This document shows, in pieces, positions 11,896 through 18,022 of a DNA stretch of 64,000 nucleotides. Each line of letters starts with the position of its first letter. The stretch's first letter is position 1. Below the pieces are notes generated by a model. The model saw only the letters and a list, made by a program, of their open reading frames with translations. It was not told the origin of the DNA and did not search any database. The position numbers and the translations under genes were made by a program. The DNA is from Alphaproteobacteria bacterium (GTDB lineage: Bacteria > Pseudomonadota > Alphaproteobacteria > Micavibrionales > Micavibrionaceae): positions 1 to 64,000 of the forward strand of contig NVUR01000019.1 of NCBI GenBank assembly GCA_002401965.1. The letters run 5' to 3'.

Positions 11896-13131
11896 CTACC
11901 CGAACAGCACATTAACTTTGTTCAATCCATTGATAAGCGCATCAACATCGCTCTGCTCACTATACATTGCAAGAGAAGCGCGCGCCGTCGCATTCAGCCC
12001 CAACATCTCCATCAAAGGCATCGCGCAATGATGGCCTGTACGTACCGCAACACCGCATTGATCCAACACCATACCAATATCACTGGGATGAGCATTATCC
12101 ATCGTGAAGCTGAGTATACCTGCCTTTTGCGTCAAATCCGCAGTGCCATGCAAGGTTAAACCTGCCACATTCTGTATCGCCTCTGTCGCATATTCAAGTA
12201 ACCGCGCCTCATGCGCCGCAATCTTATCCATAGAGTTATCCACAAGGTAATCCACCGCCGCGCCAAGACCAATAACCTCAACAATGGCTGGTGTGCCTGC
12301 CTCAAACTTATACGGTGCTTCGCGATATGTGATGCCAGATTTAAAGCTCACCCGCTCTATCATGTCGCCGCCACCTTGATAAGGCGGCATAGAATCCAGC
12401 ACATCATATTTGCCGTAAAGCACGCCAATCCCGCTCGGTGCGTACAATTTATGACCTGTAAACACATAAAAATCCACGTCCATAGCGGTAACATCCACCG
12501 CGCGATGAACAACGCCTTGTGAACCATCAACAAGGATTTTGATATCAGCGTTATATTTCCGAACCATTCGAACAATACCCGCAACAGGGTTTATCGTTCC
12601 CAAAGCGTTCGATATTTCAACAAAGGCCACCAATTTTGTTTTATCCGACAGCAAAGATTGAAATGCATCAAGATCAAGCAAGCCATCACCCGTCACAGGC
12701 ACAACTTTAACAACAACCCCAATTTGATCGGCCAGAATTTGCCACGGCACGATATTGGCGTGATGCTCCATCTCGGTGATAATAATTTCATCACCAGCTT
12801 TCAAATAAGCACGCCCCCAACTCTGCGCGACAAGGTTTATTCCCTCGGTCGCATTACGAGTAAAGATGATATTCTTCTCACTCTGCGCCCCGATAAATTG
12901 CGCGATTTTCTTACGCACATCTTCAAAGCTCTGTGTCAGGTTTTGTGAAATCTCGTAAAGACCGCGATGAATATTCGAATAGCCACCCGTCAAAACATCA
13001 TTCATCGCATCAATAACGCATTGCGGCTTTTGCGCACTCGCGGCACTATCAAGAAAAGCCAACGGCTTGCCGTTCATTGTTTTTGATAGTGCGGGAAAAT
13101 CACTGCGCCATGGCGATTGAATATTAGTCAT
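11896..13131 (-). CDS. sufS: Cysteine desulfurase SufS
   Basis: A 411-residue class II (SufS/CsdA) PLP-dependent desulfurase that takes sulfur from cysteine and hands it to SufE. The PLP lysine is K228 in FTGHKLYAPSGIG; the catalytic cysteine is C369 in RTGHHCAMPLM. The histidine stretch EMEHHANIVPW is the SufS type. Length is normal. Its start overlaps the sufD end by eight bases. The partner SufE is encoded about 18 kb away (31505-31909). Confidence 0.95.
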   Translation of the reverse strand: MTNIQSPWRSDFPALSKTMNGKPLAFLDSAASAQKPQCVIDAMNDVLTGGYSNIHRGLYEISQNLTQSFEDVRKKIAQFIGAQSEKNIIFTRNATEGINLVAQSWGRAYLKAGDEIIITEMEHHANIVPWQILADQIGVVVKVVPVTGDGLLDLDAFQSLLSDKTKLVAFVEISNALGTINPVAGIVRMVRKYNADIKILVDGSQGVVHRAVDVTAMDVDFYVFTGHKLYAPSGIGVLYGKYDVLDSMPPYQGGGDMIERVSFKSGITYREAPYKFEAGTPAIVEVIGLGAAVDYLVDNSMDKIAAHEARLLEYATEAIQNVAGLTLHGTADLTQKAGILSFTMDNAHPSDIGMVLDQCGVAVRTGHHCAMPLMEMLGLNATARASLAMYSEQSDVDALINGLNKVNVLFG

Positions 13132-14089
13132 CTGATTTCAAAGCCGCTTCTAACCAACGCCCTGCCTTTTCTTTAATCTCATCATGTAGCGCGGAGTCTG
13201 AAACCTTATCCACAACTTCATCCACAAAAGCTTGCACAAGTAACATACGTGCCTGCGCCTCACTTAAACCGCGAGAGCGTAGGTAAAACAACGGTGCTTC
13301 ATCCAGCTGCCCTGTCGTTGCACCGTGTGAACATTTCACATCATCGGCGTAAATCTCCAGCTCTGGCTTCGTATCCATCTCCGCTTTCGGGGAGAGTAAC
13401 AACGTGTTGGAGAGCTGATACCCATCGGTTTTCTGTGCCGCTTGATGCACATGGACTTTACCTTGAAATACGCCACGCGCCGCGTCATCTAATATAGTGC
13501 GATAAAACTGGTTAGATAAGCAATGCGGGGCAGTATGCTCCATCAAGATGGTCGTGTCGCCATGCTGCTTGTCCTTTAACAAAGTCACTCCATTGAGCGA
13601 GCAGTCAATATTACTGCCATTCAACACCACGTGAATATCGTGACGGGTCAGCTTACCGCCCATATTTAGAGAAAAACTATTAAGATAAGCATCGCGCTCC
13701 ATCGTGATATGCACCATGTTGGTTTGGATGGCTTGCGTGCTGTCTTCTTGGATGCGGATATGGTTTAGTCGCGCATTCGCACCAAGGGTGATTTCAGTAC
13801 TCATATTCTTCCAATATGCACCGCTGCCTTCATGTCGTTCAATTAAGGTAAGCTGCGCGCCCTCCTCCAGAACGATCTTCAGGCGCAGACTCTGGTGCTG
13901 TCCCTCAACACCTGTCCACAGGATATCCTCAATTTGCTCACAGACTTCTCCACTGGTTTTGTGGATAAGTATTTCCCGTACATCCTGAGCAGGAATATTC
14001 TTCAAATCACCAAGCGCACGCGAAAGATTGGTGTATTTCCAATCCTCATCTTTTGGCGTGGGTAAATCATTAATATCAAGCATTCTCAT
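13124..14089 (-). CDS. sufD: Fe-S scaffold component SufD
   Basis: A 321-residue SufD, somewhat shorter than the roughly 420 residues of the enterobacterial protein, as usual in alphaproteobacteria. Family marks are the opening PTPKDEDWKYTNL and, near the C-terminus, the SufB/SufD core KCSHGATTGQLDEAPLFYLRSRGLS-type stretch (conserved SHGATTGQ and YLRSRG). It forms the SufBC2D scaffold on which clusters are built. Its ATG overlaps the stop of the 44-residue membrane ORF (ATGA) and its end overlaps sufS by eight bases. Confidence 0.93.
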   Translation of the reverse strand: MRMLDINDLPTPKDEDWKYTNLSRALGDLKNIPAQDVREILIHKTSGEVCEQIEDILWTGVEGQHQSLRLKIVLEEGAQLTLIERHEGSGAYWKNMSTEITLGANARLNHIRIQEDSTQAIQTNMVHITMERDAYLNSFSLNMGGKLTRHDIHVVLNGSNIDCSLNGVTLLKDKQHGDTTILMEHTAPHCLSNQFYRTILDDAARGVFQGKVHVHQAAQKTDGYQLSNTLLLSPKAEMDTKPELEIYADDVKCSHGATTGQLDEAPLFYLRSRGLSEAQARMLLVQAFVDEVVDKVSDSALHDEIKEKAGRWLEAALKSDD

Positions 14090-14220
14090 CCTTTTTCCAA
14101 CACAATAGTAACACCATAAGCAATAGTAAGAATCGTAACAAAAATCGCAATATACTTAAAGTGTTTTGGCTTTAAAGCCCATACAATCAACATAACTAGA
14201 AATGATTTTACGAAAAACAT
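14086..14220 (-). CDS. 44-residue membrane protein between sufC and sufD
   Basis: A small gene fills the gap between sufC and sufD exactly. Its ATG overlaps the sufC stop (TAATG) and its TGA overlaps the sufD start (ATGA). The 44 codons read as a protein with two hydrophobic stretches (residues about 2-16 and 23-41) separated by KPKHFK, so it is a one- or two-pass membrane micro-protein. The double overlap, with no stops and suitable composition, argues that it is translated. No family is recognised. With the two small membrane genes on the other side of sufC it could tie SufC or the scaffold to the membrane, which is inference. Confidence 0.72.
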   Translation of the reverse strand: MFFVKSFLVMLIVWALKPKHFKYIAIFVTILTIAYGVTIVLEKG

Positions 14221-14987
14221 TAAGCCGCTGCTTCCCCGATAAATCCGGCATAGCCTTTTTCTTCCAATTCCAAGGCAAGTTCAGCCCCACCGCTTTTGAT
14301 AATCTTACCATCCGCCATAATATGCACAACATCAGGTTTAATATAATCCAGCAAGCGTTGATAATGCGTAATCACAAGGAATGATTTATCATCACCGCGC
14401 AGGCGATTAACGCCCTCCGCCACGACTTTAAGCGCATCAATATCCAGACCGCTATCCGTTTCATCAAGAACACAAAATTTCGGCTCCAGCATCGCCATTT
14501 GTAAAACTTCGTTACGCTTTTTCTCACCACCAGAAAAGCCAACATTAACCGCACGTTTCATCATATCATCAGCAATGCCCAGCTCTTTGGTTTTTGCTTT
14601 AATCAATTTCAACATACCAAGCGCATCCAGCTCATCCTCGCCGCGTTGCTTGCGGATCGCATTGATTGAGGTTTTCAGGAACATGCTCATATTCACACCT
14701 GGAATTTCAACAGGGTATTGGAAGGCAAGAAATAATCCTGCTGCTGCGCGTTCCTCTGGTGCAAGATCAAGCAAGTCTTGCCCGTCCAACGTTGCCGAGC
14801 CACTGGTCACATCATAATCATCACGCCCCGCCAAAACATAGGCCAGCGTAGATTTACCCGCGCCGTTCGGCCCCATTATGGCATGCACCTCACCCGCAGG
14901 AATAGACAGGTTCAGCCCCTTAATAATTTCCTTCGCTTCCCCGTCATCTGTTTCAATGGAAGCATGTAAATCTTTAATCTCAATCAT
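14220..14987 (-). CDS. sufC: Fe-S assembly ATPase SufC
   Basis: A 255-residue ABC-type ATPase of the SufBC2D scaffold. Walker A is GPNGAGKST at 39-47; the signature is the SufC form FSGGEKKRNE; Walker B is CVLDETDSGLD. Soluble, not a transporter. Its start overlaps the end of the 79-residue membrane gene by four bases (ATGA) and its stop overlaps the start of the 44-residue membrane gene by one base. Confidence 0.96.
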   Translation of the reverse strand: MIEIKDLHASIETDDGEAKEIIKGLNLSIPAGEVHAIMGPNGAGKSTLAYVLAGRDDYDVTSGSATLDGQDLLDLAPEERAAAGLFLAFQYPVEIPGVNMSMFLKTSINAIRKQRGEDELDALGMLKLIKAKTKELGIADDMMKRAVNVGFSGGEKKRNEVLQMAMLEPKFCVLDETDSGLDIDALKVVAEGVNRLRGDDKSFLVITHYQRLLDYIKPDVVHIMADGKIIKSGGAELALELEEKGYAGFIGEAAA

Positions 14988-15223
14988 GGTTTTAATTGTC
15001 CCAATTCATCTGGTTTCATTTTATCAACTATAAAGTCCGGCAATTGTTTCGCCGCACCTTTTTTATCCTTATTTTCACGCTCCGCCATCGCGGCAACATC
15101 TGTGGCTGGTTTAATCATCGCCTTATAGGCAAATAAAAGACCAAAAACCATCAGCGCAATTGTGAATATCATGACAACGTAATGGATACCACGATCAATT
15201 AGAAACCCTGTGTCCTTAGCCAT
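14984..15223 (-). CDS. 79-residue single-pass membrane protein in the suf operon
   Basis: The start at 15223 is chosen for the strong GGGGAGAGA just upstream; longer reading would enter the previous gene. The protein has a short N-terminus (MAKDTGFLIDRG), one membrane segment (residues about 13-34) and a charged tail with a Lys/Glu cluster and KMKPDELG. No family is recognised. It overlaps the preceding small membrane gene by eight bases and sufC by four, so it is translated as part of the suf transcript. Confidence 0.65.
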   Translation of the reverse strand: MAKDTGFLIDRGIHYVVMIFTIALMVFGLLFAYKAMIKPATDVAAMAERENKDKKGAAKQLPDFIVDKMKPDELGQLKP

Positions 15224-15473
15224 TCTCTCCCCCTCTTTTTCGCGCCTTAAGCACACCGTAAATTGAAATAATAATCCAACATATCTCAACCAACAGCCCG
15301 CCCGTATCACCAACATCATATTCCGCCGCAATAGAGATCAACAAAAACACCCCGCCAATACCATTCAACGCGCAATACACCACGCCCTTAACATCAATCC
15401 GCTCAACAATAATCAGCATATACGCAACCACGCATATCACCGCCCCGACTATACCAACGATCATCATGAACAT
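15216..15473 (-). CDS. CBU_0592-like small multi-pass membrane protein
   Basis: An 85-residue hydrophobic protein with about three membrane segments (residues 2-23, 30-50, 57-76) and a basic C-terminal end (KARKRGG), which puts the C-terminus in the cytoplasm. The pattern (short helix, YCALNGIGG turn, LVEICWIIISIYG helix) resembles the CBU_0592 family of small membrane proteins, whose function is unknown. It lies two bases after the VOC gene and overlaps the next small membrane gene by eight bases. The second Met may be the true start. Confidence 0.62.
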   Translation of the reverse strand: MFMMIVGIVGAVICVVAYMLIIVERIDVKGVVYCALNGIGGVFLLISIAAEYDVGDTGGLLVEICWIIISIYGVLKARKRGGENG

Positions 15474-15475
15474 AC

Positions 15476-15847
15476 TTATTCCTTACCGACTTGTTCATTT
15501 GAAATTTCAATTAAGTTTCCATCTGGATCTCTTAAATATACAGAATGTAATATATTTACAGCACCAGTCCTAACAACTGGTCCTAGCTCAATATCAAAAA
15601 GCTCTGCTATTTTATCAATGGTTACATCGGTTAAAAAACAAAAGTCAGAGCTTCCCATAACTGCATTTTTTGCATTTGGCTTAAATTCCTCACCAGCCTC
15701 ATGCAAATTTATTTTTTGAGTGCCAAATTTCAAAGCTACACGTCCTGCTCCAAAAATTTCAGTCTTCATACCTAAACGCTCATAAAACGCACAGCTCCGC
15801 TCTATATTTTCAACAGTCAAAACTAAATGGTCGATTGATTTAATCAC
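15476..15847 (-). CDS. VOC/glyoxalase-fold protein inside the suf operon
   Basis: A 123-residue vicinal-oxygen-chelate protein: opening [22 protein letters not shown] and ending [14 protein letters not shown] are typical of glyoxalase/bleomycin-resistance-like proteins. Candidate metal ligands H7 and the late Glu in NLIEIS are present. Substrate unknown. It overlaps the sufB end by four bases, so it is translationally coupled to an Fe-S scaffold gene, an unusual place for this family. Its DNA looks more AT-rich than sufB, perhaps a later insertion. Confidence 0.82.
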
Positions 15848-17319
15848 CCAACGCTCCCCTCCAGACTAATCGCAATTAACTTCTGCGCTTCCACAGCGAA
15901 TTCCATGGGTAAGTGTTGCATCACTTCGCGGGCAAAGCCGTTTACGATCAGGGCGATCGCATCTTCTTCGCTTAAGCCGCGCTGCATGCAGTAAAATAGC
16001 TGGTCTTCGGAGATTTTCGAGGTTGTGGCTTCATGCCCTAAACTTGCGCTTTGATTACGGCTTTCGATATAAGGCACGGTATGCGCGCCGCACTGATCGC
16101 CGATCAGCAAGCTGTCACACACTGTAAAATTCTTTGCGCCATCCGCATTGGGCATAATTTTAACAACGCCACGATAGGTATTATTGCTGCGCCCTGCACT
16201 GATCCCTTTAGAGATAATACGGCTGGTGGTATTTTTGCCGATATGGATCATTTTCGTGCCTGTATCGGCCTGCTGCCTGCCATTTGTGATAGCAACGGAG
16301 TAAAACTCACCTACCGAATTATCACCCTTTAGGATACAAGACGGATATTTCCACGTAATTGCGGAGCCTGTCTCCACCTGTGTCCAACTGATCTTAGAAT
16401 TACGACCTTCGCATAAGCCACGCTTGGTTACGAAATTATAAATCCCGCCCTTACCGGTTTCAGGATCGCCCGGATACCAATTTTGCACGGTAGAATATTT
16501 AATCTCCGCATCTTCATGGGCGACCAGTTCAACAATGGCGGCGTGGAGTTGATTTTCATCACGCATCGGCGCGGTGCAACCCTCCAGATACGACACGTAA
16601 GAGCCCTTATCCGCGATAATCAACGTGCGTTCAAACTGCCCTGTATTCAGCTCATTAATGCGGAAATAGGTCGACAGCTCCATCGGGCAACGCACACCTG
16701 GTGGAATGTAAACGAAGCTGCCATCTGTGAAAACGGCGCTGTTCAGGCAGGCATGCTTGTTATCTGAATGCGGGACGACACTCCCCATATATTTCTTCAC
16801 AAGTTCAGGATGTTCTTTTATCGCTTCAGAAATTGAGCAAAAGATAACGCCATGTTTTCTAAGTTCTTTCTTAAATGTCGTGGCAACGGACACGGAGTCA
16901 AACACCACATCCACCGCAACGGGTGTACGGTTTTTGACGCCCGCAAGAATTTCCTGTTCGCGCAATGGAATGCCCAGTTTTGAATAAGTTTCCAACAAAA
17001 TCGGGTCAACATCATCCAGAGTTTCCGGCGCATTTTCCATTGATTTTGGCGCGGCGTAATAATAGGAATCTTGGTAATTTATTGGCTTGAAATCAACCTT
17101 TGCCCATGTTGGCTCAGGCATTTTCAGCCAATGTGCATAAGCCTTTAAACGGCGATCAAGCATCCATTGCGGCTCGTCCTTCTTCGCAGAAATAAAGCGT
17201 ACAATATCCTCATTCAACCCCTTAGGTGCTTTATCCGTTTCAATATCCGTAACAAAGCCCGCCTCGTAAACACCAGACAACGCATTAACTTGTGCAATTG
17301 TTTCATCAGTAGCTGCCAT
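15844..17319 (-). CDS. sufB: Fe-S scaffold protein SufB
   Basis: A 491-residue SufB, the main scaffold subunit. Family marks include the N-terminal [14 protein letters not shown], the central [16 protein letters not shown] and [20 protein letters not shown], and the C-terminal core [19 protein letters not shown] with the cluster/partner-binding residues. Length is normal. It starts directly at the end of the 92-residue membrane gene (the codons share position 17319) and overlaps the VOC gene by four bases. With SufC and SufD it builds clusters from SufS/SufE sulfur. Confidence 0.96.
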
Positions 17320-17597
17320 TATTTTGCACCTTCATTTTCAGCTTGCTTATCGCCGTTTTTCATTAACATTCTGTTAGTCGCCTCTATATCGCCACCATAA
17401 TATTTACAGACCCTATAATCACCCGTTACTTGATAACACTGATATATAGAATACTGATATACGAGAAAAACAGCTAAAATAATCAACACAATAACGGCCA
17501 TAAATTTTTCGCGTTTTCTTTTATATTTTGCAGGCTCGTTATAATTCATCTTCTGATAGGGTTCTTTCAAATCCCACGCTGCAAACCATCCCCACAT
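17319..17597 (-). CDS. 92-residue membrane protein between iscR and sufB
   Basis: The ATG at 17597 overlaps the iscR stop (TAATG), which supports this start over the inner Met at residue 17. The protein has a cytoplasmic-looking basic N-terminus (KYKRKREK), one membrane segment (about residues 33-52) and an outer part with cysteines in [18 protein letters not shown]. No family recognised. It is co-translated with iscR and sufB. In many alphaproteobacteria this position holds a cysteine desulfurase gene or nothing. Confidence 0.68.
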
Positions 17598-18022
17598 TAG
17601 CCAACCCTCTTCAAAGAGCTGTGGTTAGTCGCCATATCTGCCAACGTGACATCACTCAACACCTCGCGAATGGCGGTGTTCACACCATCCCATCGCCCGC
17701 GTATAGAGCAAGCATCGCTTAAAATACAATCAGGTTCATTTCCATTGGCGCAATCTGTAATCGCAATTGGCCCATCAATCGCTTTAATGATTTGCTCAAT
17801 AGAGATATCCTGCGGTGTAGCAGCCAAAGAATATCCACCATTTGTACCACGGGTTGAGATAACGATTCCCGCCTGCACCAAAGCCTTCAACACTTTAGAG
17901 GTAGTTGGCTCGGTCAATCTTGTATGTTGGGCTAAATTAGAGACGCTCACAAAAGAATCAGCTTGCATCAGCTCTACCAACACAACCACAGCATAATCAG
18001 ACATTCTTGTAATCTTGAGCAT
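17597..18022 (-). CDS. iscR: Rrf2-family Fe-S regulator IscR (SUF type)
   Basis: A 141-residue winged-helix regulator of the Rrf2 family. The N-terminal opening MLKITRMSDYAVVVLVEL is that of the SUF-system regulator. Cysteines 91, 99 and 105 are placed as in IscR to bind a [2Fe-2S] cluster. It likely senses Fe-S supply and represses its own operon when clusters are plentiful. It is the first gene of the long suf transcript; a short inverted repeat lies between candidate -35 and -10 boxes just upstream (18031-18060). The stop overlaps the next gene's start. Confidence 0.93.
   Translation of the reverse strand: MLKITRMSDYAVVVLVELMQADSFVSVSNLAQHTRLTEPTTSKVLKALVQAGIVISTRGTNGGYSLAATPQDISIEQIIKAIDGPIAITDCANGNEPDCILSDACSIRGRWDGVNTAIREVLSDVTLADMATNHSSLKRVG

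Follow-up and report, generated by a model that had tools for sequence, protein, structure and literature searches.

The stretch of DNA that was analyzed (the window, 64,000 nucleotides) comes from a Micavibrio-like alphaproteobacterial MAG (G000, 86% complete) and carries a suf operon on its minus strand. In the direction of transcription, the operon begins with a gene for an Rrf2-family SUF regulator (17597..18022; TIGR02944, 7.9e-41), followed by a 92-residue ORF with one hydrophobic stretch (17319..17597), which overlaps both the regulator gene and sufB by a single base, and by a sufB-like gene (15844..17319) that features the SufBD core and the SufBD N-terminal region. Next come a glyoxalase-fold (VOC) gene (15476..15847; PF00903, 1.5e-07) that overlaps the end of sufB as GTGA, a gene for a CBU_0592-family membrane protein (15216..15473; NF047864, 1.5e-15), and, directly before sufC, one for a 79-residue protein (14984..15223) that has one hydrophobic stretch as judged by eye and no family above cut-off. 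The remainder consists of sufC (14220..14987; TIGR01978, 5.5e-106), the small gene that is the subject of this study (ORF44, 14086..14220), sufD (13124..14089; TIGR01981, 2.1e-83), sufS, a 209-residue ORF, a SUF-associated protein (TIGR02945), and a SufA/IscA-like protein. All of the genes for which coordinates are given lie on the minus strand; sufS was assigned by eye, and several family scores in the operon fall under the curated cut-off of the best model. The usual genes of a SUF operon core (sufB, sufC, sufD, sufS, SufT-like, SufA-like) are present, and ORF44 is inserted inside them. The SufD encoded here has about 320 residues; the sufD frames at family loci L022-L026, L029 and L030 comprise 410-453 codons and apparently include an extended N-terminal part.

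The nearest relative of this genome is G003 (SufC 95% and SufD 93-94% identical). Its suf operon has no counterpart of the VOC gene between sufB and the next gene; the CBU_0592-family protein is kept, as is the 79-residue protein (83 residues in G003). An additional 151-residue ORF follows sufS in G003 (L045 8196-8651) and is matched by nothing at the corresponding position of the window; the content of other suf junctions therefore also differs between close relatives.

ORF44 encodes a hydrophobic protein of 44 residues (MFFVKSFLVMLIVWALKPKHFKYIAIFVTILTIAYGVTIVLEKG). Its start codon and the sufC stop codon have one base in common (TAATG), and its stop codon overlaps the first possible sufD ATG (14089) as ATGA. 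The description in the first-pass annotation of an ORF that fills the sufC-sufD gap with an overlap at each end was thereby confirmed, with a qualification at the downstream end, where a second in-frame sufD ATG is found 6 nt after the first, at 14083. Shine-Dalgarno pairing in the 20 nt upstream is stronger for this second ATG (-5.4 kcal/mol, compared to -3.3 kcal/mol for 14089), and the spacing of a Shine-Dalgarno-like AAGGA in the 3' end of ORF44 (14089..14093, minus strand) favors it as well. Given the better pairing at 14083, the actual start of sufD may lie 6 nt further downstream, and the overlap at ATGA is perhaps not used. At the upstream end, a Shine-Dalgarno-like GGGGAAG is located in the 3' end of sufC (14231..14237, minus strand), and the 20 nt before the ORF44 ATG pair at -5.7 kcal/mol. 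G003, G009 and G004 also have TAATG at their tight junctions, where it is sufD that starts there; the TAATG at the start of ORF44 may itself be old.

The 128-nt insert was subjected to 5000 dinucleotide shuffles, of which 3.0% stayed open and 1.5% ended exactly on ATGA. The double coupling of ORF44, taken alone, is modest evidence for a gene. The GRAVY value of ORF44 is 1.35, compared to 0.84 +/- 0.33 in the 149 open shuffles (p = 0.074), i.e. its hydrophobicity is only mildly above the expectation from a T-rich insert.

A search of the family genomes yielded an ORF44 homologue in one of the 103 others, G095, which belongs to another genus (E 3.4e-8). It is about 50% identical to ORF44 (49% over 41 residues in the search), and the alignment, which extends from the initial Met as far as residue 42 (of 44), contains 21 invariant residues and the common motif IVWALxPKxxK. 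The G095 protein has 43 residues, and its gene is also situated between sufC and sufD, where it fills the junction: it begins one base past the sufC stop, and its own stop overlaps sufD as ATGA. A conserved frame at the same sufC-sufD junction in relatives, on which the first-pass annotation had staked its proposal, was accordingly found in one relative. Sequence identity between G000 and G095 is 80% for SufC and 69% for SufD. The hydrophobicity of the homologue is well above that of its own open shuffles (p = 0.002), and among the sense frames through the insert, only that of ORF44 (1 of 3) is open in both genomes. At the three candidate ATGs of the G095 sufD there is no Shine-Dalgarno pairing (+0.3 to +0.4 kcal/mol), so a hand-over from the small ORF may be needed there. 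A SufC tree, which is based on this single gene, sets G000 and G095 apart; either loss or horizontal gain could account for the presence of ORF44 in two separate lineages.

The two coding sequences are 64% identical in nucleotides over 42 aligned codons. Their 45 differences are distributed over the three codon positions as 16/8/21, which amounts to a weak excess at the third position (21 of 45; p = 0.043). As a coding control, the same nucleotide changes were placed randomly 20000 times; 16388 of these controls acquired a stop, and the 3612 stop-free ones were kept. The observed BLOSUM62 sum of 116 was reached by none of the 3612 (61.9 +/- 13.7, maximum 106), and the observed amino-acid identity was reached by 60. 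The ratio of nonsynonymous to synonymous changes varies with the method (NG86: dN 0.355, dS 1.372, ratio 0.26; YN00: dN 0.455, dS 0.631, ratio 0.72), and this selection test is a small one with two sequences only. In this one pair, the BLOSUM62 sum points to selection at the amino-acid level. ORF44 is probably a real protein-coding gene, though a rare one, as the first-pass annotation had supposed; this reading is founded on the syntenic homologue and the conservative substitutions, not on the coupling.

The same annotation had noted two hydrophobic stretches in ORF44. These were found, and an AlphaFold2 model calculated from the two-row alignment features two helical segments (residues 2-16 and 18-43) with a break at residue 17, at a pLDDT of 80 and a pTM of only 0.38. 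The first hydrophobic segment is short and carries a Lys at position 5. In the membrane, the two segments would probably form a hairpin.

The distribution of ORF44 is narrow. In G003, the junction reads sufC-TAATG-sufD with nothing inserted. No significant match was found in the 11 other genomes of the same genus, G003 included, several of which are incomplete; matches at chance level (E 0.1-0.6) occur in 4 of the 11, and one member of the genus, G008, has no sufD match either. Of the 142 genomes searched in the order, two (G000 and G095) matched strongly and, besides these two members, 16 matched weakly (E 0.004-0.1). In a class sample of 385 genomes, the own genome matched strongly and four others weakly (E 8e-4 to 6e-3). 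Weak matches were followed up by segment alignments at ten loci and by ORF lists at three. Two of the latter, L068 and L077, are alternate frames within large genes and the third, L086, is a piece of a 179-residue membrane protein, and all three were rejected as relatives; inspection by eye revealed no suf gene at L068, L077 or L086. A phylum sample of 398 genomes produced, besides the own genome, matches in G664 and G573 (E 1.5e-5 and 1.7e-5), two genomes of one genus in another class. Their 75-residue protein has a hydrophobic layout like that of ORF44 but does not have its ALxPKxxK loop, and the respective 3-kb loci contain no suf gene by eye; a NUDIX-like gene, again by eye, adjoins. Although the match is nominally significant, we read the likeness as convergent, with remote homology possible. 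The CBU_0592-family protein is, like ORF44, a small membrane protein of the same operon; its model, NF047864, is not listed for ORF44, and it is kept in G003, whereas ORF44 is not.

Profile and structure libraries contained no significant match to ORF44. The best hit in Pfam was HupE_UreJ_2 (E 0.036; 14.2 bits, below the cut-off of 24.5), and the best E-values in PHROGs, NCBIfam and the PDB chains were 0.032, 0.3 and 4.5, respectively. Phages searched by tblastn gave no match for ORF44 or for the G095 protein, plasmids searched in the same manner gave none for ORF44, and a scan of IMG/VR based on the two-row alignment produced 105 pattern stretches, none of which was confirmed as a relative. 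With these phage, plasmid and viral searches empty, an origin of ORF44 from a phage or plasmid was rejected. The same applies to an origin as a repeat: no second copy of the insert was found in the own assembly (86% complete; next match E 0.30), Rfam had no match in 13900-14400 on either strand, and the insert folds weakly (raw energy -19.3 kcal/mol, as opposed to -32.4 to -60.9 kcal/mol for the four hairpin inserts described below). The Rfam scan also bears on a reading of ORF44 as a type I toxin-like hydrophobic peptide, which would have a cis antisense RNA or a known RNA partner: no described one was seen, and an undescribed antisense RNA may be present. A likeness, noticed by eye, of the ALKP of ORF44 to the N-terminus of the G003 SufD (ALALKPENLP) was ascribed to chance. 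A search of the full-text literature, which leaves preprints and most subscription journals outside, returned no paper on a small sufC-sufD gene or on a Micavibrio suf operon.

sufD was detected at E <= 1e-30 in 99 of 104 family genomes. A survey of the junction comprised 102 loci: those of the 99 family genomes, those of G037 and G042 from another family of the order, and G076, which was represented twice. Eight of the 102 were unusable: two were without sufC, four were without an alignable sufD downstream, and two were dropped (the second sufC copy of G076, which is frameshifted, and a G111 stretch that contains runs of N). A junction was considered occupied if at least 60 nt separated the sufC stop from the most upstream in-frame sufD start. 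By this definition, 25 of the 94 resolved junctions are occupied (24 of 92 in the family alone). A gap was taken to be filled end to end if an ORF started no more than 25 nt from the sufC stop and ended no more than 12 nt from a sufD start; a single ORF does so in 17 of the 25 occupied junctions and not in the other 8.

The slot is occupied by hairpin elements and by genes of roughly eight kinds. Besides the ORF44 kind (G000, G095), there are an exported two-Cys kind (G005, G018, G090, G092, G115 and G117; two of these were scanned, and neither matched Pfam), a kind of 204-207 residues (G016, G072 and G073; G016 was scanned and has no Pfam match), VOC proteins (G032 by Pfam; G024, G079 and G123 by resemblance), DUF559 proteins (G035 by Pfam, G083 by resemblance), a GIY-YIG protein (G081), a GNAT protein (G022), and a kind of 170/192 residues (G042, scanned with no Pfam match, and G087 by resemblance). 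The sufC-sufD junction is an insertion hot spot, i.e. a variable cargo slot. Target-site duplication was rejected as a general origin of the double coupling: in the 25 junctions, the longest exact match between the left and right ends averaged 5.28 nt for own pairs and 5.18 nt for swapped pairs. In the single case of G022 (L012), near-identical sequence of the sufC end and sufD start was seen by eye on both sides of the GNAT gene, which looks like a duplication of the junction and was missed by the sufD start chosen in this test.

The hairpin inserts (G010, G012, G120 and G074; L008, L016, L094 and L106) are 97-181 nt long. Three of them (those of G010, G120 and G074) make ORFs that are coupled at both ends and count among the 17 filled junctions; the G012 insert has no bridging ORF. 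Two of the inserts belong to dispersed repeats: that of G010 has 17 matches in its own genome and that of G120 has 6, self included. Since such repeats can be coupled at both ends, exact double coupling alone does not prove a gene, and the contention that it is hard to obtain by chance could not be upheld. Selection for bridging ORFs in the hairpin inserts was considered and rejected. It appeared strong when judged by the fraction of shuffles that stay open (0.164 for G010, 0.053 for G120, 0.048 for G074) but is weak given that precisely one sense frame is open in each of the four inserts; bridging is then expected in about one of three insertions, so that three out of four is no strong argument.

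The exported kind consists of exported-looking proteins of 108-146 residues in which two Cys are invariant, as is a Trp located close to where the shared region ends. Its occurrences at sufC-sufD, in six genomes, are at loci L010, L011, L090, L093, L101 and L104. Nine matches to it were found in the family at E <= 0.001, six of which are those at sufC-sufD; the other three lie on contigs without the sufD (G111, 1.1e-21; G011, 1.2e-7; G080, 6.8e-4). For the 92-residue ORF of the window, the sole other family match at E <= 0.01 is in G090 (E 1.2e-5, 35% over 52 residues), and it, too, resides in a suf operon, albeit shortly before sufC and not before sufB (L164 2944-3171). Three patchy small-gene families (ORF44, the 92-residue ORF and the exported two-Cys proteins) are thus found mostly or only in suf operons. 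This pattern could reflect a functional linkage to SUF or an exchange of suf segments between lineages; the SufC tree, as a single-gene tree, does not decide between the two. A bolder version, in which a largely suf-confined pool of small proteins, located in the membrane or exported, moves between the suf junctions of various genera and tunes or localizes Fe-S assembly at the envelope, with ORF44 acting as a membrane adaptor of SufBCD, strikes us as rather improbable.

The explanation that we favor, with a probability of roughly 0.6, is that ORF44 is a genuine optional cargo gene for a small inner-membrane protein that has its own lineage-specific role and would not be part of the SufBCD scaffold. 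The presence of other small genes at the same spot in relatives makes ORF44 more likely to be an optional extra than a core part. Ribosomes finishing sufC would re-start at TAATG on ORF44, aided by GGGGAAG. The product would insert into the inner membrane as two short helices, probably as a hairpin, and by the positive-inside rule the KPKHFK loop would be on the cytoplasmic side. Ribosomes finishing ORF44 would then start sufD at ATGA or at the ATG six bases on, and the insert would thus leave the sufC-to-sufD hand-over intact. ORF44 would be dispensable, as close relatives have their SUF genes without it and other lineages have other genes in the slot, and it probably serves some membrane function specific to its lineage that is co-expressed with Fe-S assembly.

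A dedicated SUF accessory, which would bring SufBCD (or a client) to the inner membrane or anchor it there for the delivery of Fe-S clusters to membrane enzymes, is less likely than optional cargo, and we consider it doubtful. The SufBCD complex is soluble, and KdpF and AcrZ are examples of small membrane subunits encoded in the operons of their partners. ORF44 is likewise very short, hydrophobic and operon-encoded; unlike such subunits, it adjoins the genes of a soluble complex. A further precedent is CydX, a very short hydrophobic protein whose gene accompanies those of its complex (PMC4325964). A dedicated role would also be consistent with both strong ORF44 members occupying one and the same suf junction, while the 142 order genomes contain no other strong match, and with the suf-operon location of the sole other match to the 92-residue ORF. 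Shared descent at one junction, however, accounts for this synteny without a functional link. Co-occurrence with the partner, as in subunits of the CydX/KdpF type, is not seen, with sufD in 99 and ORF44 in 2 of the 104 family genomes, and ORF44 is absent from most suf operons of the clade, where a core SUF component would be expected. The suggestion that ORF44 belongs to SUF as such was therefore not sustained: G003, despite SufC and SufD that are 93-95% identical, the other 10 genomes of the genus and nearly all of the family are without a significant match, and different genes occupy the same slot elsewhere.

It is more improbable still that the peptide is irrelevant and that only an open frame carrying ribosomes from sufC to sufD was selected. 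Such a bridge would fit the 17 of 25 occupied junctions that a single ORF fills end to end, the coupled ORFs in three of the four hairpin inserts, and the G095 sufD, with its missing Shine-Dalgarno pairing; the hairpin figure carries little weight when about one insertion in three would bridge anyway, and the fourth insert, that of G012, does not. A pure bridge, moreover, has no need of a peptide that is conserved across genera with conservative changes. That conservation also speaks against a mere chance ORF in non-coding filler DNA, which we hold to be very improbable. The shuffles that stay open (3.0%) or end exactly on ATGA (1.5%), a hydrophobicity near that of the T-rich insert and the absence of ORF44 from its nearest relative could all be explained in this way, but a homologue at the same junction of another genus, whose substitutions look protein-like and whose hydrophobicity is well above that of its own open shuffles, could not readily be.

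Small membrane proteins encoded in operons are already known, and ORF44 would be one of this kind, in an unusually changeable slot. As optional cargo, ORF44 represents a 44-residue gene that is absent from the searched family libraries and is backed by synteny and substitutions across two genera. The sufC-sufD slot offers a testable point on operon gene gain, and it demonstrates that start-stop overlaps at both ends are not proof of function. In this family, a tightly coupled suf operon repeatedly takes in genes, and the hand-over of ribosomes is often apparently preserved.
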